A stretch of DNA of 28,122 bases from a virus, in the IMG/VR virus record IMGVR_UViG_3300027704_000120, positions 1 to 28,122 of that record. The stretch is one strand, 5' to 3'. Each line of letters begins with the position of its first letter. The stretch's first letter is position 1. Shown here piece by piece: positions 3,103 to 24,773 of this stretch. The notes beneath the pieces were generated by a model, which had not been told where the DNA came from, searched no databases, and saw only the letters and a list, made by a program, of their open reading frames with translations. A program made the position numbers and the translations under genes.

Positions 3103-3475
3103 TTATAACAAGAAAGGAATGGCAAAACCAAGAATGACTCAAGCTGATTCTTGGAAAAAAAGACCTATTGTTTTAAAATATTGGGATTATAAACATGATA
3201 TAAAAGAATGGGCTTTTAAGAATGATTTTAAATTAGGAAATGAAATATATTGTTATTTTCATATACCAATGCCTAAGTCTTGGAGTGTTAAAAAGAAAAA
3301 AGAAATGCTTGGAGAAAATCATCAACAAAGACCTGATATAGATAATCTCTTAAAAGGTTTAATGGACGCACTTTTAGAAGAGGATTCTCATATTCACACT
3401 GTATATGCTAAAAAGATTTGGAGTGATAAAGGCTGTATAGAGTTTTATAACTTAACTAATCTTGATCTTTCATAA
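3095..3475 (+). CDS. rusA: RusA-type Holliday junction resolvase, 126 aa
   Basis: The signature RPDIDNLLKGLMDAL (about residues 80-94) is the RusA metal-binding core in which aspartates bind Mg2+, and a further acidic pair (EED, 97-99) follows; KPRMTQADSWKKRP near the N-terminus is typical of RusA-like proteins of Bacteroidetes phages. These dimeric endonucleases cut four-way DNA junctions, clearing branches before packaging. The length fits RusA (about 120 aa). The start is uncertain: TTG 3095, directly after an in-frame TAG, adds ISYNKKG, which looks like the usual first strand; ATG 3119, with AGAAAGGA upstream, is the alternative. It ends 20 bases inside the convergent gene on the other strand. 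Confidence 0.88.
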   Translation: MISYNKKGMAKPRMTQADSWKKRPIVLKYWDYKHDIKEWAFKNDFKLGNEIYCYFHIPMPKSWSVKKKKEMLGENHQQRPDIDNLLKGLMDALLEEDSHIHTVYAKKIWSDKGCIEFYNLTNLDLS

Positions 3476-3779
3476 TATTATAATCTTTAGATGTTTTATA
3501 TCTTTGTTTATATATTATATTTCGGCATTGCTTCTCAGTTATTCCATGTCTTATAGATATATCTATAAAAGTATTTCCTATATGACCTTCATTGTTTACT
3601 ATGAATTTATCAAAATCATTAAACATCATATAATTTCTTAATGCTTTAGGAGGTATTATACCATTTTCAATAAGATGATAGACCAAATCTTTAACAGTAA
3701 AATCTTCTCCCCACCTAGCTTCTGATTCTTTCCAGACTATATCTAAAAATTCATCTATAATCTCTTTGTGGTTAGCCAT
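3456..3779 (-). CDS. Hypothetical protein, 107 aa
   Basis: The last gene of the minus-strand packaging/tail unit. Its ATG follows the stop of the 78-aa gene directly, and its 3' end overlaps the convergent resolvase gene by 20 bases. It is largely helical and acidic at the N-terminus (KEIIDEFLDIVWKESEARWG). A segment near residues 72-92 (FIDISIRHGITEKQCRNII) looks like a possible helix-turn-helix, which would suit a DNA-binding role but is not conclusive. No family recognised. Confidence 0.65.
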   Translation of the reverse strand: MANHKEIIDEFLDIVWKESEARWGEDFTVKDLVYHLIENGIIPPKALRNYMMFNDFDKFIVNNEGHIGNTFIDISIRHGITEKQCRNIIYKQRYKTSKDYNIMKDQD

Positions 3780-17858: not shown

Positions 17859-18007
17859 TTTCTATGTTTTAATTTATTCTTAAAGTTTCCAAACTATGTC
17901 AATTATTTTGATTATATTAGCACCTTATTATTGTTGTTTATAAATAATATAAAAACCCCTTTAACAAAATCCTTTTCATTTTTGTTGAAGTGATGGTCAA
18001 GGGAATA

Positions 18008-18523
18008 TTATAATGTTTCTTCAGGGGATTTATAATTAAACACAAATCCTTCCCCACCACTAGTAACATCAACCCTGTCAATCACAATTCCTTTCATCTT
18101 TGCAATATCCTGGAGTAATAATCTACAGATATTCAAATCTCCTGCCTTATATCCTTGACTATATAAATCTTGCAACATTATTGCGTGTTTATCCATTTCA
18201 TATTCTCTCTCCTCTGCAAATTGCTCTGCAAAACTCTCTAATGCCTTCTTATAATAAATACTAGCCATCCTTCTCTTAATTCCCCAATGAGCTTCGCAAT
18301 ACTCCATTATATCAGTGTACCTTACTCCTCTTAAAATTAACCTTACAACTTCAGTGGTTCTTTTATAACTAACTAAAGAAGTAGCCTTACCTGAGTCCTT
18401 AGTTATATCTAAAGCTGAACTATTCTTAGTTGAAACAACAGCCTTAATAGTCTTTAAATCTTGCTCTTTTTGAAGCAGCTTGGCATCCCTCTTATCAGCC
18501 CTTCCTTGATCTCTTTTGTTCAT
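18008..18523 (-). CDS. terS: Terminase small subunit, 171 aa (putative)
   Basis: This protein should recognise phage DNA and hand it to TerL. After a basic N-terminus (KRDQGRADKRDAKLLQKEQD), residues about 56-92 contain VVRLILRGVRYTDIMEYCEA with HWGIKRRMASIYYKKALE, a helix-turn-helix layout typical of TerS N-terminal domains. A helical centre follows, and the end DRVDVTSGGEGFVF resembles the C-terminal 'D-x-VDVT' segment of small terminases. The size is usual. It starts the minus-strand unit: a TAACTTTG box lies 4 bases before its ATG, and the next gene is 149 bases downstream. Confidence 0.8.
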   Translation of the reverse strand: MNKRDQGRADKRDAKLLQKEQDLKTIKAVVSTKNSSALDITKDSGKATSLVSYKRTTEVVRLILRGVRYTDIMEYCEAHWGIKRRMASIYYKKALESFAEQFAEEREYEMDKHAIMLQDLYSQGYKAGDLNICRLLLQDIAKMKGIVIDRVDVTSGGEGFVFNYKSPEETL

Positions 18524-18527
18524 TTTA

Positions 18528-18560
18528 CAAAGTTACATTATTTATGTACAATATAACGAA
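18528..18560 (-). promoter_or_regulatory. Candidate promoter of the packaging/tail unit
   Basis: Minus strand: TTCGTTATATTGTA at 18560-18547, then TAACTTTG at 18535-18528, which matches the Bacteroidetes TAnnTTTG -7 box and ends 4 bases before the small terminase ATG. TTCG lies 21 bases upstream of TAACTTTG, close to the spacing of a -33 TTTG element. Whether the upstream motif or the TAACTTTG box is used cannot be decided from sequence. Confidence 0.4.
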
Positions 18561-18873
18561 TAATAAATTATAAAGTTTGGAACTAAAATAAATATTGTGC
18601 AGTTAGTGTAATAAAAGTTGAAAATCCGAAAATCTAGTGTGAATATCGTACTACCTAAAATGCTGTCTTGATCTACGTAATTAGATGGTAATTAATACGA
18701 CAACGCAAACCGCCAGGCAATAACAATTTAAAAATTTTTATGTATTAATACAGCCGAACCGCTGCACAGTTTACCGCTATAATGTCCGCGAAGCTGTGAC
18801 AACTGAACGCCAACAACACGCCAACAACTGTAAAATAGAATGCGTAAAAGTAAGACCCACAGCCCACAAATAA

Positions 18874-19020
18874 CACCACCACCACCACACCACCACACCA
18901 CCACCACACCAACCAACCAACGCCACACAATAACACAACCAACCAACGAACCCACGCGAAGCAATACACCCACACCAACCAACGAACCAACCAACGAACG
19001 AACGAACCAACCAACGCCAC
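18874..19020. repeat. Low-complexity CCA / CCAA / CGAA repeat block
   Basis: The plus strand is nearly G-free and made of CCA triplets (18874-18910), then CCAA and CGAA tetranucleotides (to 19020), with a partially repeated CGCCAC(A/G)CAATAnA segment at about 18920, 18950 and 19013. On the minus strand it reads GGTGG and GGTTGG tracts; GGTTGGTGTGG occurs twice (complement at 18904-18914 and 18970-18980). The base composition is quite unlike the neighbouring AT-rich DNA. Confidence 0.9.
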
Positions 19021-19027
19021 GCAATAC

Positions 19028-19052
19028 AGCCGCAGCCCTTAAAAAAGAGCAT
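19028..19052 (+). repeat. Left copy of cassette-flanking direct repeat
   Basis: The segment AGCCGCAGCCCTT followed by A6, GAGCAT is matched at 20317-20345 by AGCCGCAGCACTT, CAG, A7, GAGCAT in the same orientation. The pair encloses the two-gene cassette 19105-20190. The A-rich end of this copy runs into the terminator hairpin. Confidence 0.6.
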
Positions 19053-19083
19053 AAAAAAAACCGCCCATTTAAGGCGGCTTTAA
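19053..19083 (-). terminator. Intrinsic terminator of the GP88 cassette
   Basis: Minus strand AAAGCCGCC (19081-19073), a 7-base loop, GGCGGTTTT (19065-19057), then more T. The GC-rich stem with a run of eight T is a classic intrinsic terminator, 22 bases after the stop of the 105-aa gene. Confidence 0.9.
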
Positions 19084-19104
19084 TACTATTGATTTGCTCA
19101 GAGT

Positions 19105-19422
19105 TTACACGCGTTGCGGTATGCCGTTTCTATCACCTATATATAATTGCAACCCCTTACAAAGCTTTCCTATAAAGCTGCGTACTTCCTCCGCTTGGCT
19201 TTCGTGCATATATATTACGAAGCGTGAACCTGTAGCCCCTAATATATCGCATTGCGTACCACCTGCAAAAAGTATATAATTTTCATAAAGAGGGGCGTTA
19301 AGATTTAAGTACTCTTTGAGCTGTGCTAACTTGTTAGGGATGGCGTTCGTTGTCGCGTTGTCCCTGTCAAAGAGTAAGGTTACATCTATTTTGTGCGTTG
19401 GTGTTGTTTTTGTTTTTGTCAT
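19105..19422 (-). CDS. Hypothetical protein, 105 aa
   Basis: The gene lies 27 bases downstream of the GP88 gene and just before a strong terminator, so the two form one unit. The threonine/lysine-rich N-terminus is followed by an alternating pattern (KIDVTLLFDRDNA, ENYILFAGGTQ, SRFVIYMHESQAEEVRSFIG), suggesting a small alpha/beta fold. There is no signal peptide and no recognised family. The DNA is richer in CG dinucleotides than the tail genes (for example around 19109-19120), so this cassette probably has a different recent origin. Confidence 0.7.
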   Translation of the reverse strand: MTKTKTTPTHKIDVTLLFDRDNATTNAIPNKLAQLKEYLNLNAPLYENYILFAGGTQCDILGATGSRFVIYMHESQAEEVRSFIGKLCKGLQLYIGDRNGIPQRV

Positions 19423-19449
19423 GTTGTTTAATTTAAATTAGTTATTATT

Positions 19450-20190
19450 TTAGTTGTTATGTATTACGAAGCCGCTCTTATCCTTTACCGCTTTGCCCTT
19501 AGCTTTTAAGCCTAGTATACAGTTTTTAGCTTCTAACATTACAAGGTCGGAGCTGTCACCATCCACAACCGCAAACCCCTTATAATATTTAGGAAGTGAG
19601 CCGCTGAATACTGCCGCCACATTTCCGCCCATTTGCAAAGCTTTTAAAATGTCGCGTTCGTTATCCTCCTTTCGTGATAGTGTAACCGCGTAATTTGTTC
19701 CGATGTATTTTTTTACTTTGCCTAGTATAGCTGTATAGTCATAAAATACTAGATTTGCAAACTCTGAGCCGTTGAGTAGGTCTAAATTATTATACTTTTT
19801 TAATAATGCGATAAAATCTAAATCTGAAGTCCCATTTAATCGGATAGCAATTTTTTTATCTTGTTTTATTGCTTTTGCTCCTATTTTTATAATTTCCTTA
19901 GCTAATTTATCTAAAAATATAGTTTTGTCACTTATATAGAAGTCCGCTTTATTTATTCGTGCTTTTTTTACACTGTCAAAATTTCCACGCCCTGCGGTAT
20001 ATAAACACGCAGCCGCACAGCCTTTAGAAGCTTTCGGACATAAATTTACACCTTTACTATTTTGTTTTTCGGGTGCTAAGTATAAAATAAAGCTTTCAAG
20101 CTCATTTTTTTTGGTTTTTGCGTTCGTGCTTCCTTTACTTAGTAAGGAGGTCGGCACATAGTAACGCGGTTTTTTTGTTTCTGTATTCAT
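19450..20190 (-). CDS. GP88-family phage protein, 246 aa
   Basis: The segment NLCPKASKGCAAACLYTAGRG (residues 49-69) with C51, C58 and C62, the following KKARINKADFY, and AIRLNGTSDLDF (115-126) are the hallmarks of the family named after mycobacteriophage gene product 88, which is spread over many unrelated phages and mobile elements. No function is established; the three cysteines and invariant RLNGTSD suggest a metal or cofactor site, which is my inference. Length is usual. ATG at 20190 follows a leader with a divergent promoter-like sequence (20225-20212). Codon use is richer in G/C than the tail genes. Confidence 0.8.
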   Translation of the reverse strand: MNTETKKPRYYVPTSLLSKGSTNAKTKKNELESFILYLAPEKQNSKGVNLCPKASKGCAAACLYTAGRGNFDSVKKARINKADFYISDKTIFLDKLAKEIIKIGAKAIKQDKKIAIRLNGTSDLDFIALLKKYNNLDLLNGSEFANLVFYDYTAILGKVKKYIGTNYAVTLSRKEDNERDILKALQMGGNVAAVFSGSLPKYYKGFAVVDGDSSDLVMLEAKNCILGLKAKGKAVKDKSGFVIHNN

Positions 20191-20316
20191 CTTATTAGTT
20201 TTTGTTAGGGTTGCAATATATAAATAAATTTAATATTAATACTTTTTTATAGTTATTTATTAAATATTTATTTGTTACATGGTTTTTGCTCCTAGTGAGC
20301 GGACATAAACAAAAAG

Positions 20317-20345
20317 AGCCGCAGCACTTCAGAAAAAAAGAGCAT
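20317..20345 (+). repeat. Right copy of cassette-flanking direct repeat
   Basis: AGCCGCAGCACTT, CAG, A7, GAGCAT matches the left copy at 19028-19052 apart from one substitution and about four inserted bases. The same GAGCAT-A7 ending recurs at 20444-20456 before the next terminator. Confidence 0.6.
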
Positions 20346-20377
20346 CCACCCACAACACCCCCCAAAAATCTTATTCC

Positions 20378-20446
20378 CTTGTAAATAGAAAATCAAGCGT
20401 ACTTTTGAGTGCCGCTTGTAAATAGAAAATCAAGCGTACTTTTGAG
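20378..20446 (+). repeat. Two identical 32-bp direct repeats, 37-bp period
   Basis: Copies at 20378-20409 and 20415-20446 are identical, each beginning CTTGTAAATAGAAAATC and ending AAGCGTACTTTTGAG, separated by 5 bases (TGCCG). Each carries AGCGTACTTTT, related to AGCGTACATTT in the repeats at 23023-23098. Two copies with a 5-base gap do not make a CRISPR array. Confidence 0.95.
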
Positions 20447-20449
20447 CAT

Positions 20450-20480
20450 AAAAAAACCTCCAACTAAGGAGGTTTCTGTT
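20450..20480 (-). terminator. Intrinsic terminator (works in both directions)
   Basis: A perfect 8-bp stem, AAACCTCC (20475-20468 complement) with GGAGGTTT, around a 6-base loop; on the minus strand it is followed by T7 in total (20456-20450). On the plus strand the same hairpin is followed by TTTCTGTTTTT. It closes the operon 22858-20541. Confidence 0.9.
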
Positions 20481-20540
20481 TTTAAATTTAATCGCAAATC
20501 TTAAGAAATGCTAAGAAGAAGATTATTATCCATATGTACA

Positions 20541-20669
20541 TCATTCGCAAGTGTATGTTTTGATTTGTAGCTCATTTGCTTTACTTCTAAGATAATAACT
20601 CTGTAGTGTTATCACATTACACCTCAAAAGCAATTTAAGGTTGTTAGGAGTGTTATTTTGCTCTATCAT
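20541..20669 (-). CDS. Small ORF at operon end, 42 aa
   Basis: ATG at 20669 overlaps the stop of the 127-aa gene by 4 bases (ATGA), the join used throughout this genome; it ends TGA at 20543-20541, before the operon's terminator. The peptide begins MIEQNNTPNNLKLLLRCNVI and is mixed polar/hydrophobic with no membrane segment or motif. A still smaller hydrophobic frame (18 aa) overlaps its end. Expression is plausible from the overlap, not proved. Confidence 0.45.
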   Translation of the reverse strand: MIEQNNTPNNLKLLLRCNVITLQSYYLRSKANELQIKTYTCE

Positions 20670-21049
20670 CTATTAATGTGTTTTTCTAGCTTATTTGAAA
20701 GCTCATCTGCATTTAACAACAAGACTTGATATTTTTTATACATCTGCCTAAGTCCTCTCCTTGCAACTTCTTTGCTGTTTGTTTCAAACAATAATTCCAT
20801 TTTCAAGTTCAGTATTACCTCCTTTTGAGATTCAATTTTATCCTTTAATTCTGTAATATTTTCTTTTTGATTTTTCATTTTATAATTTTTGATTAATAGT
20901 ACTGCTTCATTTGTATTTATATTACCATCAGTATGTAACTCAGTAATTCTACCAATGCATCTATCTTTTAAGTTCAGAATAATATCTGCCCATGTTATGG
21001 TAATATGTCCTTGGTCTAGTAACCTTTCTACTATTGAATTTCTAGTCAT
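20666..21049 (-). CDS. Hypothetical coiled-coil protein, 127 aa
   Basis: Helical throughout: residues about 56-90 (QKENITELKDKIESQKEVIL) show heptad-like spacing of leucine/isoleucine, typical of a coiled coil, as does the C-terminal ELSNKLEKHINR. The N-terminal part has RNSIVERLLDQGHITITWAD, which could be a small helix-turn-helix but is not convincing. The start is 9 bases after the previous stop. Function unknown. Confidence 0.65.
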   Translation of the reverse strand: MTRNSIVERLLDQGHITITWADIILNLKDRCIGRITELHTDGNINTNEAVLLIKNYKMKNQKENITELKDKIESQKEVILNLKMELLFETNSKEVARRGLRQMYKKYQVLLLNADELSNKLEKHINR

Positions 21050-21058
21050 GATTTTTGA

Positions 21059-21361
21059 TTAATAGTTATAGGTATGCCCTCCATAATCTCCCACTTGAAA
21101 TCTTGTTTCTACTTCTTCACAATTCTCTAGCCCATTGTAATCATAGAAACCACTACCTCCTAATGTTTCTGCCTTATCTAAAGCTAAATCCATTTTATCA
21201 GTAATTTCCTCCTCAATATTCTTTTGCATCCACTCCTCTACATCATAATCTCCAACGCCTACAGGTACATTTACAGACACTTCTACAAATTTATGCAGAG
21301 TTATTCTTTGTTGGATTGTTACTTGCTTAAACCCTCCTTTTTGTTTTGTGATTTCAGTCAT
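21059..21361 (-). CDS. Hypothetical acidic protein, 100 aa
   Basis: The N-terminal strand-rich part (FKQVTIQQRITLHKFVEVSV) is followed by a DYDVEEWMQKNIEEEITD acidic helix, then a glycine/tyrosine-rich end. There is no membrane segment, cysteine cluster or catalytic motif. It is the middle gene of the unknown operon, with 18- and 9-base gaps to its neighbours. Family unknown. Confidence 0.65.
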   Translation of the reverse strand: MTEITKQKGGFKQVTIQQRITLHKFVEVSVNVPVGVGDYDVEEWMQKNIEEEITDKMDLALDKAETLGGSGFYDYNGLENCEEVETRFQVGDYGGHTYNY

Positions 21362-21379
21362 TTTGTTTTGTTTTATTTG

Positions 21380-22858
21380 TTATTTAATTATTAGTGTATT
21401 GATTTTTTTCATTTGTGATACAATTTTAGAACGAGTAGGAATATTCTCATCTTTAAATCTAACATCATCTTTCATGTACATAAGAGTTTCTAATGATGTT
21501 AATAGTAAAGGATAACTTTGAGGTGAGAATACTTCATCTTTAATGTCTACCTGTGATTCTAACTCATATATTCTATCTTCTAACTCTTTGATTCTTTGTG
21601 CCGACCTCCTTACTAAGGCTTCCATTGATACCGCTGTTTTTTCAAAGACTGTAATTCTATCCTTTAAATGATTATTAGCTAATCTACTTAACTCTAATTC
21701 ATCCACACTTCCCATTGCATCTCCATTCTTATCAAAACTTCCCATTGCACTTCCTAATTCATCACCATTATCCAAAGGTTTTTGGATACTCCAAGTTATT
21801 GAGCAATCAAATTCCAAGTAATCATCTACTAAATCTATAACATCAGAAGCCATTTCATCTGATGTACAGCCATTTAATAAGTAACTACAATCAAAGTATT
21901 CAGCCAATTTACCAAAATCTAAGTGATGAGTATCTAAAGGTATTTTACCATTAGAAATCTCTAACTCAATTTGGTTTTTTACTTTCTCAAAATTCTCTAT
22001 TTTTAAATCCCATTCTTTTGATACTCTTGTTTTTTCATCATCTTCAAACATATTTTTAGGCTCACATCCAAAGGTCATAGATTCATTTAGTACATTCCAA
22101 TTATCCCAAATCTTCAATATAGAATAACCATCTATTTTTAGGATTTCCATAGTATTCAAAAACTCATCAAGACTACTTGGCTCAAATGAACCAACTACTT
22201 CAACCATGTAATCTCTAGCTATTTGGTGAAATCTTAATTCAAATGATTCTTGCATATCTACTATGTTATCATAAACATCAAAACTATCTTCACATCTATC
22301 AAATTGACTTGAATCATAACTACTTCTCTCTAAATGATGAACAACAAATTGATTAAACTGTTCTTTATCACTATTATCATTAGCACTATTAGGTAGTAAT
22401 ACATCAAACAATTCTATGTTATTAATACTTAATCTAAAAGTATCAACAGAATCATTACCATAACTAATATCCTCAACTCTAAACCCCATATCTTCAAACA
22501 TAATGTAGTAATGTCCACTTTTATGCGGTGTGTGGATTCCAACATAAGGTAGCCACTCTTCCTTACCCATAACATTATCAATAAACCAATCATTGTATAG
22601 CGTTCTCTCTAAAGTATGAAGTTTATCACTCTCAATGTATTCATTACCTAGTGTTAATCCATAACTATCATTTAACATATAAGTATTGGCTCTATCATGT
22701 GTTGAAAAATTTGTATTAATATGTATATAGTAGTATTCCTCATATACATATATATGTGTTGTGTTGTTAGATACCTCTACATCATCATTATTCTTCTCGT
22801 TAAACTCTTGTGGAGTCATTTTTTTTCTTGTTGCTAGAAAGTCTTGAAATGTTTTCAT
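21380..22858 (-). CDS. Hypothetical acidic protein, 492 aa
   Basis: The first and largest gene of the operon ending at 20541. It is very acidic (many D/E) with aromatic strands early (THIYVYEEYYYIHINTN), a central mixed region, a short internal repeat (SAMGSFDKNGDAMGSVDE, about residues 368-385) and a helical segment at about 410-440 (RSAQRIKELEDRIYELESQ) likely to form a coiled coil. No enzyme motif, signal peptide or membrane segment. The start ATG at 22858 is preceded by a long untranslated region with promoter-like TTCGTTATATGTA at 22896-22884. I recognise no family. Confidence 0.7.
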   Translation of the reverse strand: MKTFQDFLATRKKMTPQEFNEKNNDDVEVSNNTTHIYVYEEYYYIHINTNFSTHDRANTYMLNDSYGLTLGNEYIESDKLHTLERTLYNDWFIDNVMGKEEWLPYVGIHTPHKSGHYYIMFEDMGFRVEDISYGNDSVDTFRLSINNIELFDVLLPNSANDNSDKEQFNQFVVHHLERSSYDSSQFDRCEDSFDVYDNIVDMQESFELRFHQIARDYMVEVVGSFEPSSLDEFLNTMEILKIDGYSILKIWDNWNVLNESMTFGCEPKNMFEDDEKTRVSKEWDLKIENFEKVKNQIELEISNGKIPLDTHHLDFGKLAEYFDCSYLLNGCTSDEMASDVIDLVDDYLEFDCSITWSIQKPLDNGDELGSAMGSFDKNGDAMGSVDELELSRLANNHLKDRITVFEKTAVSMEALVRRSAQRIKELEDRIYELESQVDIKDEVFSPQSYPLLLTSLETLMYMKDDVRFKDENIPTRSKIVSQMKKINTLIIK

Positions 22859-22883
22859 TGTGTTTTGTTTGATTAATATTAAT

Positions 22884-22896
22884 TACATATAACGAA
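22884..22896 (-). promoter_or_regulatory. Promoter-like motif before the 492-aa gene
   Basis: Minus strand TTCGTTATATGTA, one base shorter than TTCGTTATATTGTA before the small terminase gene; preceded by AAAAAAGTA and 26 bases upstream of the ATG at 22858. Further upstream TAAATTTG (about 22936-22929) fits TAnnTTTG and is an alternative. Confidence 0.35.
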
Positions 22897-23022
22897 TACT
22901 TTTTTAGATACACAAATTATATGCAATCAAATTTAATAAGATGAGATGAGGTGAATTTAGATTCAATTAGATGAATAAATGTGAAATCATATGCAATGCA
23001 ATACTCAGAAGAGCATATTTGC

Positions 23023-23098
23023 CATATTACATATAAAGAGGATCAATAGCGTACATTTACGATATTAGTATAAAGAGAATTTCCAGCGTACATTTATG
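23023..23098 (+). repeat. Imperfect tandem repeat, about 38 bp, two copies
   Basis: Copy 1 (23023-23061) and copy 2 (23061-23098) share ATATTA, TATAAAGAG, AT and AGCGTACATTTA in order, with scattered substitutions. AGCGTAC starts at 23048 and 23085, 37 bases apart. The same word at the same spacing occurs at 20396 and 20433. Confidence 0.85.
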
Positions 23099-23133
23099 TG
23101 TTAAAAATTAAATTTTCTTCCGCCTGGACTGAT

Positions 23134-23170
23134 CACAAAAAGAAAAAGGAGAGCATTTAAGCTCCCCTTT
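23134..23170 (-). terminator. Intrinsic terminator after the metallophosphoesterase gene
   Basis: Minus strand AAAGGGGAGC, TTAAAT loop, GCTCTCCTTT: a 10-bp stem with one G-T wobble (23170-23145), followed by TTCTTTTT. The wobble becomes an A-C mismatch on the plus strand, so it is oriented for minus-strand transcripts from the lysis unit. Confidence 0.88.
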
Positions 23171-23187
23171 ATCACTTTCTAACAAGT

Positions 23188-23206
23188 TATAGTAAGATTT
23201 ACTATA
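23188..23206. repeat. Inverted repeat TATAGTAA-3-TTACTATA
   Basis: A perfect 8-bp dyad around a 3-base centre, located between a promoter-like motif (23220-23233) and the terminator hairpin. It could be a repressor site or an RNA hairpin. Confidence 0.7.
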
Positions 23207-23219
23207 TTCAACAAAACAT

Positions 23220-23233
23220 TACAATATAACAAA
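23220..23233 (-). promoter_or_regulatory. Promoter-like motif TTTGTTATATTGTA
   Basis: Identical over 14 bases to the motif at 15699-15712. It is 46 bases downstream of the phosphoesterase stop and about 50 bases upstream of a terminator, so a transcript from here would be very short. Confidence 0.35.
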
Positions 23234-23279
23234 AAATATTTGACATATTAATCAAATAAAAGCTTTTTTTATAGTATAA

Positions 23280-24365
23280 TTAAAAATAATGCACAAATCT
23301 TGCTACTTGACCGCTTTCTTTGTCATGTAAAAATCCTTCTACTGCTTTAGGAACACCACAAAACCCCTTTCCTGAGTGCCAAGAATCACTAGCTGATGGA
23401 CTTCTCATATATTCCACAGTAACACCAATATAATCTTTAGCATCTAACCACTTGTGCTTAATCTTATGATGTAAATGATGTAGATACCAATACCTGTGAG
23501 TTGTTTCTGCCCATTCTTTTGGCTTCTCATTTGCCATCAAAAGGGGTAACTTGTCAAATTTAGCCCCATCCCCATGTTCTAGTCCAATTAAATTACTTCC
23601 AAATTTATAATATTTACGATTTGATACCCCAGCATCAACTGTAACATCATCTGCATTTCTAAACCAACTCTTTAAAGCGTGTGCCAGGTGAAATCCACTT
23701 TGGAAATCGTGATTACTCATTGAATGTACACAATCCACAGGAGCAACTTCTCTTAACATCTCTACACAATGAACATAAACCTGTAAAGCAACTTCATAAT
23801 GTTCCCACCACTTACCATCTGTATCTTGATAAGTACCTCTAGTAGTTGCCGAAAGCACGGAGTCGGTGTGGAGTATGTCATTACCAATACAGAATAACAC
23901 TCTATCTATCCCAAAACCTTTAGCTTTTTGAATAAGCCCACTAACACCCATTAAAACTCTTTGTATAGCAATCTCCATATTGTATTCTTCACCTGTTTCT
24001 CTTGCACTAGCATATTTTCCAATATGAACATCAGCAGGATTGATAACCAATAAGTGTTGCCCTTCTTTATGTATAATTTTAGGGTATTCAGGAGCATTAT
24101 CTTCAATAAGCTTTAAAACATTACTAAATACATTTTTCTCATCAACTACATTAGGCTTAGTGACTACTGAAAATCGTAAATCACCACCCATGTTTTGCCA
24201 ATGTTTAACTGAAATAACATCTTTCTTTTCAATACCTCTTTCAAGTAAATGCTCATCTAAAGCTGAATTGTGCGAAAGGTTATAGTTGAGGTTTTTTAAA
24301 TCCCCTGCTCGGTGTTGATATATAAAATCAACTTCTTCATCCGAAAGTCTTAATCGTTTTCCCAT
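23280..24365 (-). CDS. Metallophosphoesterase (calcineurin-like) protein, 361 aa
   Basis: The motifs of the two-metal phosphoesterase fold appear in order: D112-x-H114 (PADVHIGK), G161-N-D163 (CIGNDILHTD), N218-H219-D220 (MSNHDFQ), H264 (LEHGDG) and a histidine cluster HHLHH (296-300). Such enzymes hydrolyse phosphomono- or diesters; the phage substrate is unknown (DNA, nucleotide or other). The N-terminal ~100 residues look like a DNA-binding-type addition (RLSDEEVDFIYQHRAG), and similar phage proteins are known with this layout. It is the last gene of the lysis unit, 15 bases after the holin stop and before a strong terminator. Confidence 0.85.
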   Translation of the reverse strand: MGKRLRLSDEEVDFIYQHRAGDLKNLNYNLSHNSALDEHLLERGIEKKDVISVKHWQNMGGDLRFSVVTKPNVVDEKNVFSNVLKLIEDNAPEYPKIIHKEGQHLLVINPADVHIGKYASARETGEEYNMEIAIQRVLMGVSGLIQKAKGFGIDRVLFCIGNDILHTDSVLSATTRGTYQDTDGKWWEHYEVALQVYVHCVEMLREVAPVDCVHSMSNHDFQSGFHLAHALKSWFRNADDVTVDAGVSNRKYYKFGSNLIGLEHGDGAKFDKLPLLMANEKPKEWAETTHRYWYLHHLHHKIKHKWLDAKDYIGVTVEYMRSPSASDSWHSGKGFCGVPKAVEGFLHDKESGQVARFVHYF

Positions 24366-24380
24366 ATAGTAAAAGTATTG

Positions 24381-24773
24381 TTATTTTTTAACCTTTTCCC
24401 AACTCCTTCCACCGAAATATGCACCAATGACTGTTAATAAGATCAATTGTAGAAGATCGATCCAAGTTCCATCCACATGAAAGTCTATAAAACCTGCATC
24501 TATAAAGATAAGAATCATTGTACTTAAAACAAGAAATAAAAGTATAATTGGGCGTACATTTTTAGCTAACCAAGAGTCTGATTCCATATCTGACTTCCAT
24601 CTAGCTGATACTTCTTGTTGCATTTTAGATTCATAAGAGTGAATTATCTCCTGAATCTTTCTTTCTGCTTCTAACTTCTCTTCTTTTGTTGTAGTTAAGT
24701 TGTCTATAACACCTCCTACACTATCAACAAGGTCTTTAGCTCCACTTGAAAATATTTTACCTAGTATATTCAT
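24381..24773 (-). CDS. Holin, 3TM type (putative), 130 aa
   Basis: An amphipathic N-terminal region with a charged helix (TKEEKLEAERKIQEIIHSYE) leads into SWLAKNVRPIILLFLVLSTM and two further hydrophobic stretches, IFIDAGFIDF and WIDLLQLILLTVIGAYFG (residues about 72-124). The SWLA-x-N-x-RP entry into the first membrane helix is characteristic of the 3TM holin family found in phages and gene transfer agents. It would form the inner-membrane hole at lysis. It belongs to a lysis cassette, just downstream of the spanin-like pair. Confidence 0.75.
   Translation of the reverse strand: MNILGKIFSSGAKDLVDSVGGVIDNLTTTKEEKLEAERKIQEIIHSYESKMQQEVSARWKSDMESDSWLAKNVRPIILLFLVLSTMILIFIDAGFIDFHVDGTWIDLLQLILLTVIGAYFGGRSWEKVKK

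Follow-up and report, generated by a model that had tools for sequence, protein, structure and literature searches.

In T4-type phages, as summarised in two reports, promoter-stem-loop cassettes (PeSLs) consist of a terminator hairpin and a promoter-like motif that lie among the genes of an accessory region subject to shuffling, and the promoters are of the host-like early type (PMC4503421, PMC3950731). Lambdoid morons are accessory open reading frames that lie between conserved late genes and carry their own promoter and terminator signals (PMC1524935). The stoperators of Cluster A mycobacteriophages are short asymmetric sites in one orientation, the consensus of which differs among related phages; they are found genome-wide and are read by a known immunity repressor (PMC6550527). 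The SAS and ESAS of Cluster K are conserved asymmetric sites, mostly in one orientation, that precede selected genes; the SAS sit immediately upstream of start codons and the ESAS consensus is subcluster-specific (PMC3203893). The -7 boxes of flavobacterial promoters read TAnnTTTG or, in an alternative class, TAnnTTGY (PMC9723704).

Here we describe a repeated two-box element of a marine flavophage. Its arrangement appears comparable to that of the T4 cassettes, as summarised in those reports, and to that of the morons, and its lineage-specific consensus recalls stoperators and ESAS. On the features compared, it is not itself a stoperator, an iteron or a SAS. We regard it, with a probability of roughly 80%, as a cis-regulatory element that is lineage-specific and serves accessory operons, a claim that is common to its reading as a promoter and its reading as an operator.

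The repeat and the two-box element

The window (the whole 28,122-nt record) is AT-rich, with 32% GC. It contains copies of AGCGTAC[A/T]TTT starting at 20396, 20433, 23048 and 23085, all on the plus strand, and an exact search found no further copy in the record. The positions and common orientation given in the initial annotation are thereby confirmed. In first-order random sequence 0.025 copies would be expected in each window, and four were never reached in 200 randomised windows. Chance recurrence of low-information repeats would be helped by the base composition, but it is refuted by this count and by conservation of the element in other contigs of the family, and its probability is negligible. 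A near-match at 24551 lies inside coding sequence that is kept in relatives.

The repeat makes up the distal half of a longer, directional element of 27 bp which, read on the minus strand, the coding strand of the adjoining operons, is AAAWGTACGCT-N10-TTTAYA. The repeat units of pair B (20378–20409 and 20415–20446) are identical at all 32 bases, and those of pair A (23032–23059 and 23069–23096) are 82% identical over 28. The two pairs had been thought to lie in unlike surrounding units; this proved wrong, because the second box, TTTAYA, is common to both. Element A2, together with the TGTAA that follows it, contains TTATATGTAA, which is also the sequence of the host-like -7 box of its own operon (Table 1). 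Both pairs do have a period of 37 bp, as first noted, but tandem spacings in relatives are 11, 22, 25, 28, 29, 31–33, 36–40, 49, 56, 58 and 62 bp, which rules out a fixed functional period and makes the equality coincidental. None of the helical phasing of these spacings was significant. Rfam gave no match at 18000–24500 of the window and a tRNA search found none.

Arrangement of the operons

The pairs had been described as flanking one operon, 22858–20541. They do not flank it as a unit: either pair stands behind a terminator and ahead of a minus-strand operon of its own, one running down from 22858 and the other from 20190 (Table 1). Pair A lies about 170 nt from the ATG at 22858 and pair B about 190 nt from that at 20190. 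As in morons, accessory reading frames lie among late genes with putative promoter and terminator signals; the difference is that here multigene operons stand under one repeated, lineage-specific element.

Table 1. Features of the element region of the window and of its borders
Feature	Position	Strand	Description
Exonuclease-like gene	24365–23280	-	Upstream border of the element region
Intrinsic terminator of upstream operon (exonuclease-like gene side)	23145–23170	-	10-bp stem, 5 GC pairs, T-rich tail
Two-box element A1	23069–23095	-	AAATGTACGCT-GGAAATTCTC-TTTATA
Two-box element A2	23032–23058	-	AAATGTACGCT-ATTGATCCTC-TTTATA, then TGTAA
Host-like -7 box, candidate flavobacterial promoter	22883–22892	-	TTATATGTAA, about 25–33 nt 5' of first ATG; compared with TAnnTTTG/TAnnTTGY (PMC9723704)
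Accessory operon behind pair A	20666–22858	-	ORFs of 492, 100 and 127 aa; no known family
Intrinsic terminator	20450–20472	-	Hairpin, CCTCCTTAGTTGGAGG-TTTTTTT; 7 nt before element B1
Two-box element B1	20417–20443	-	AAAAGTACGCT-TGATTTTCTA-TTTACA
Two-box element B2	20380–20406	-	Same sequence as B1
Host-like -7 box	20212–20220	-	TATATTGCA, about 30 nt 5' of ATG at 20190
Accessory operon behind pair B	19105–20190	-	GP88-family protein (246 aa, PF17338) and 105-aa protein
GP88-family cargo gene	19450–20190	-	PF17338
G/T-rich block	18760–19057	-	GGTTGGTT, GGTGGT
Block 5' of terS	18548–18646	-	ATATTCACACTAGATTTTC ... TTATTACAC ... TAGTTCCAA
terS-like gene	18523–18008	-	Other border of the element region

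In most relatives the place of the GP88-family cargo is taken by an unrelated protein of about 300–360 aa. Between cargo and terS the window has a strand-asymmetric, low-complexity block rich in G and T; G002, G003, G032 and G035 have blocks of this kind in the corresponding position, which is also where several contigs end. The block just 5' of terS is strongly conserved across relatives and is possibly a cos or pac site.

Related phages and box types

When viral contigs were scanned, the doubled site returned 10 of them and the full two-box element 28. By blastp, the multi-copy contigs share synteny with the window, and many of the single-copy contigs are probably chance matches. The relatives have a common late gene order, and at least 12 marine flavophage contigs of this synteny have elements of the kind almost exclusively in the hypervariable region between the exonuclease-like gene and terS. 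Genes of this region have homologs in 11–31% of other complete genomes, compared with 73–90% for the remaining genes, a variability that resembles the shuffling region of the T4 cassettes. Other phage operons (terS, capsid side) are without the element. The sites are thus conserved in related phages and sit at operon boundaries, not scattered through coding DNA, in agreement with the initial annotation. Mosaicism is strong within the group: G029 and G003 (L297–L299, L158–L159) have several genes that are 93–99% identical, and their structural genes and genes 25, 26 and 31 are only 36–60% identical.

A second set of relatives was fetched with the exonuclease-like and terS-like proteins, without use of the motif, which avoids circularity. 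Most of the exonuclease relatives obtained in this way lack the GTACGCT word. Seven of the nearest were read for type, and each has another first box, in tandem and in the same place after a terminator. The first boxes of other lineages include AATTGGTAACA (L173/L177, which are G029/G030), AAATGGCCTGA (L181/G033), AAAAGTCCTGA, AAATGCAC (L180/G032, with a single GTACGCT copy in addition) and TTAGTACAC (L178/G031, the weakest case, in which the sites number two and the second box is unclear); L182/G034 has AATTGGTAGCA or AGTTGGTAG, L175 has AATTGTACG[CG]T and the more distant member G037 has AAAAGTCCTG. The second box and the spacing are similar in these types, with TTTA or TTAA about 20–22 nt after box 1 begins. 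A single phage keeps almost entirely to one type. Three GTACGCT-type genomes, G007, G019 and G038, are one species (99.8% identity) and so provide a distant phage of this type for which gp25 and gp26 are known. No comparable repeat was found in the cultured phages 11b, lillamy9-1 and phi10:1 by a crude test, which is insensitive since it also missed G032.

The position of the elements at the borders of a hypervariable region, and the mixture in G032 of AAATGCAC sites with one AAATGTACGCT site, could suggest that element and terminator are simply conserved borders at which modules are swapped by homologous recombination, the sequence being otherwise incidental. However, 27-bp boxes with a variable spacer and lineage differences leave little homology across types, and a trans-acting reader is indicated by the invariable orientation and by a type that hardly varies within one phage. 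As the explanation of the element we consider this very unlikely; a role in recombination may be additional to regulation and does not exclude it.

Orientation and geometry

Across 11 phages, 56 copies of the type word in the cargo region run forward, co-oriented with the genes, and none runs in reverse; the word is rare elsewhere, and the first-order expectation is 0–3 per genome strand. Close relationship among some of the phages means that the 56 sites are only partly independent. Type words were picked by eye from the sequences, so that their counts are descriptive; neither the strand bias nor the location bias was part of that choice. The single orientation is shared with stoperators; genome-wide spread is not, the sites being almost confined to the cargo region, and the two-box form is a further difference. 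An exception outside it is a single two-box copy at G033 9691 (L309), which lies between minus-strand early genes and is opposed to their direction.

A terminator was recognised at most 90 nt upstream in 18 of 27 clusters, and in 13 of the 27 box 1 begins only 3–12 nt past its T-run, so that terminator and motif adjoin as they do in the T4 cassettes. The distance to the gene is generally long: 17 of the 27 clusters end 96–200 nt before the next ORF (≥60 aa). This distance, and the usual position after a terminator, contrast with the placement of SAS. The exceptions are at G017 7299, where the element fills the gap before a lysozyme-like (lysis-type) gene and its second box overlaps the ATG, and at L175 452; two-box copies at L175 452 and 1570 lie directly before and after the exonuclease-like gene without a terminator. 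One site, at G017 9508, is inside a gene. A TATAT-type -7 box is found 20–52 nt before the next ORF in 19 of the 27 clusters.

In the GTACGCT type the gap between the boxes is constant at 10 nt. Over 30 deduplicated sites, information is present at positions 0–11 and 17–31 but not beyond, and 18 of the 30 have G at +29; as box 1 and a TTTA box were the criteria by which these sites had been chosen, only the flanking signal is independent. Copies with a 22-bp period overlap one another, and one array in G029 consists of box 1 without box 2, at a period of 11 bp.

Host and phage proteins

The element is not a host motif. With one mismatch allowed, 299 Flavobacteriaceae genomes typically have about one two-box match and at most a few each, modestly above the reversed control, and none has a tandem two-box pair; a genome-contig scan gave scattered single matches only, at about the estimated chance rate. 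The element carries TTTAYAnG, as opposed to the TAnnTTTG or TAnnTTGY of the host sigma-A or SM5 flavobacterial promoter (PMC9723704). It differs in this from the T4 cassettes: the motif is non-host, tandem and has a first box that varies by phage lineage, and a host-like box, where present, is separate and downstream.

No sigma factor, RNA polymerase or repressor was recognised among the G002 proteins scanned, which cover the structural proteins in part. Two overlapping early genes, 25 and 26 of G002 (L156 2269–3160), have no relative in the cultured phage collection. The first encodes a protein resembling DnaA domain IV (PF08299, 2.5e-6), with a fold match to the DnaA DNA-binding domain (3pvp/1j1v, probability 1.00). 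One possible explanation would be replication iterons or a partition site read by this protein, and the initial annotation had named iterons, a replication control site and a centromere-like site among its suggestions. Yet gp25 does not follow box type, which rules it out as the reader: that of G038, a GTACGCT-type phage, is 35% identical to those of G002/G003 of the same type, and those of G029/G030, of another type, are 51% identical. Nor do the sites form a regular array at a single origin; each phage has at least two separate clusters, with spacings of 11–62 bp, co-oriented at the heads of accessory operons and usually after a terminator. We consider an iteron or partition site highly improbable.

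The 176-aa gp26 has a confident predicted fold that matched nothing in the PDB. It is 51% identical between G038 and G002/G003, within the GTACGCT type, and 45% identical to the other type, and is a weak candidate for the reader; the co-variation is weak because structural genes 3–10 track type too, and more strongly. Two further candidates were rejected. A Mor-type activator was considered for the 107-aa protein at 3456–3779, but the Mor match is weak (0.11), a family search found none and the likely recognition helix appears by eye to be conserved across types. A split sigma factor, with gp25 as region 4 and gp26 as region 2, is at odds with the DnaA-like nature of gp25 and with the lack of a PDB fold match for gp26.

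Discussion

The initial annotation proposed binding sites of one protein. What stands is that these are conserved, non-host sites at operon boundaries, probably those of one DNA-reading factor. Its mention of operators named the right class, operator- or promoter-type sites.

At close to even odds, and judging from sequence and setting, the elements may be phage-specific, regulator-dependent promoters, in tandem, that head two accessory, moron-like operons. The upstream terminator would end the preceding transcript. From position and sequence, the near-invariant AAWWG (positions 1–5), at about -33, would be a weak -33 box, and the second box, TTTAYA (positions 22–27) within TTTAYAnG, would be the -10/-7-like element. 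The 6-bp word after AAWWG (TACGCT in this phage and different in other lineages) would be read by a lineage-specific factor, and each phage would thus have a code of its own for driving its cargo. Often a further promoter, of host-like sequence (TATATTGY or TATATGTA), would lie 20–50 nt before the first gene. Several observations count against promoters: the G017 element that ends on an ATG, the opposed copy in G033, the operons on the terS and capsid sides that do without the element, and the lack of a sigma factor or RNA polymerase among the scanned proteins. The host-like promoters nearer the genes also mean that the element may not be a promoter at all.

Those downstream promoters could instead be the target. 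The elements would then form an operator or roadblock array through which a phage DNA-binding protein controls a host-like promoter 90–190 nt downstream, or read-through from upstream. Asymmetric sites in a single orientation to transcription, with a lineage-specific consensus, are expected of such an array, and stoperators likewise share an orientation and a cognate-specific consensus (PMC6550527). Some copies overlap or precede terminators (L175 5278, G032 39195, G017 13090), and the overlapping 22-bp copies and the 11-bp box 1 array suit protein-binding sites better than promoters. However, the sites are limited to accessory operons, no repressor or integrase was recognised among the proteins scanned, the 11- and 22-bp periods come without significant helical phasing overall and the TTTAYA box is kept, as a promoter would need. 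We think an operator array somewhat unlikely, and favour the promoter, tentatively, as the form of the regulatory element.

The element gives a sequence signature that marks the accessory operons of a group of uncultured marine flavophages, that differs between close relatives sharing most of their genes and that is set apart from replication-origin readings. It offers a testable proposal for how mosaic phages hold swapped cargo under their own control. In a bolder form, which we think rather improbable, the AAWWG ... TTTAYA core with its exchangeable 6-bp word, together with a fast-diverging phage reader of no known fold, for which gp26 would be the weak candidate, would constitute a private regulatory code among co-existing marine flavophages; if this were true, swapped cargo would work only in phages of matching type.
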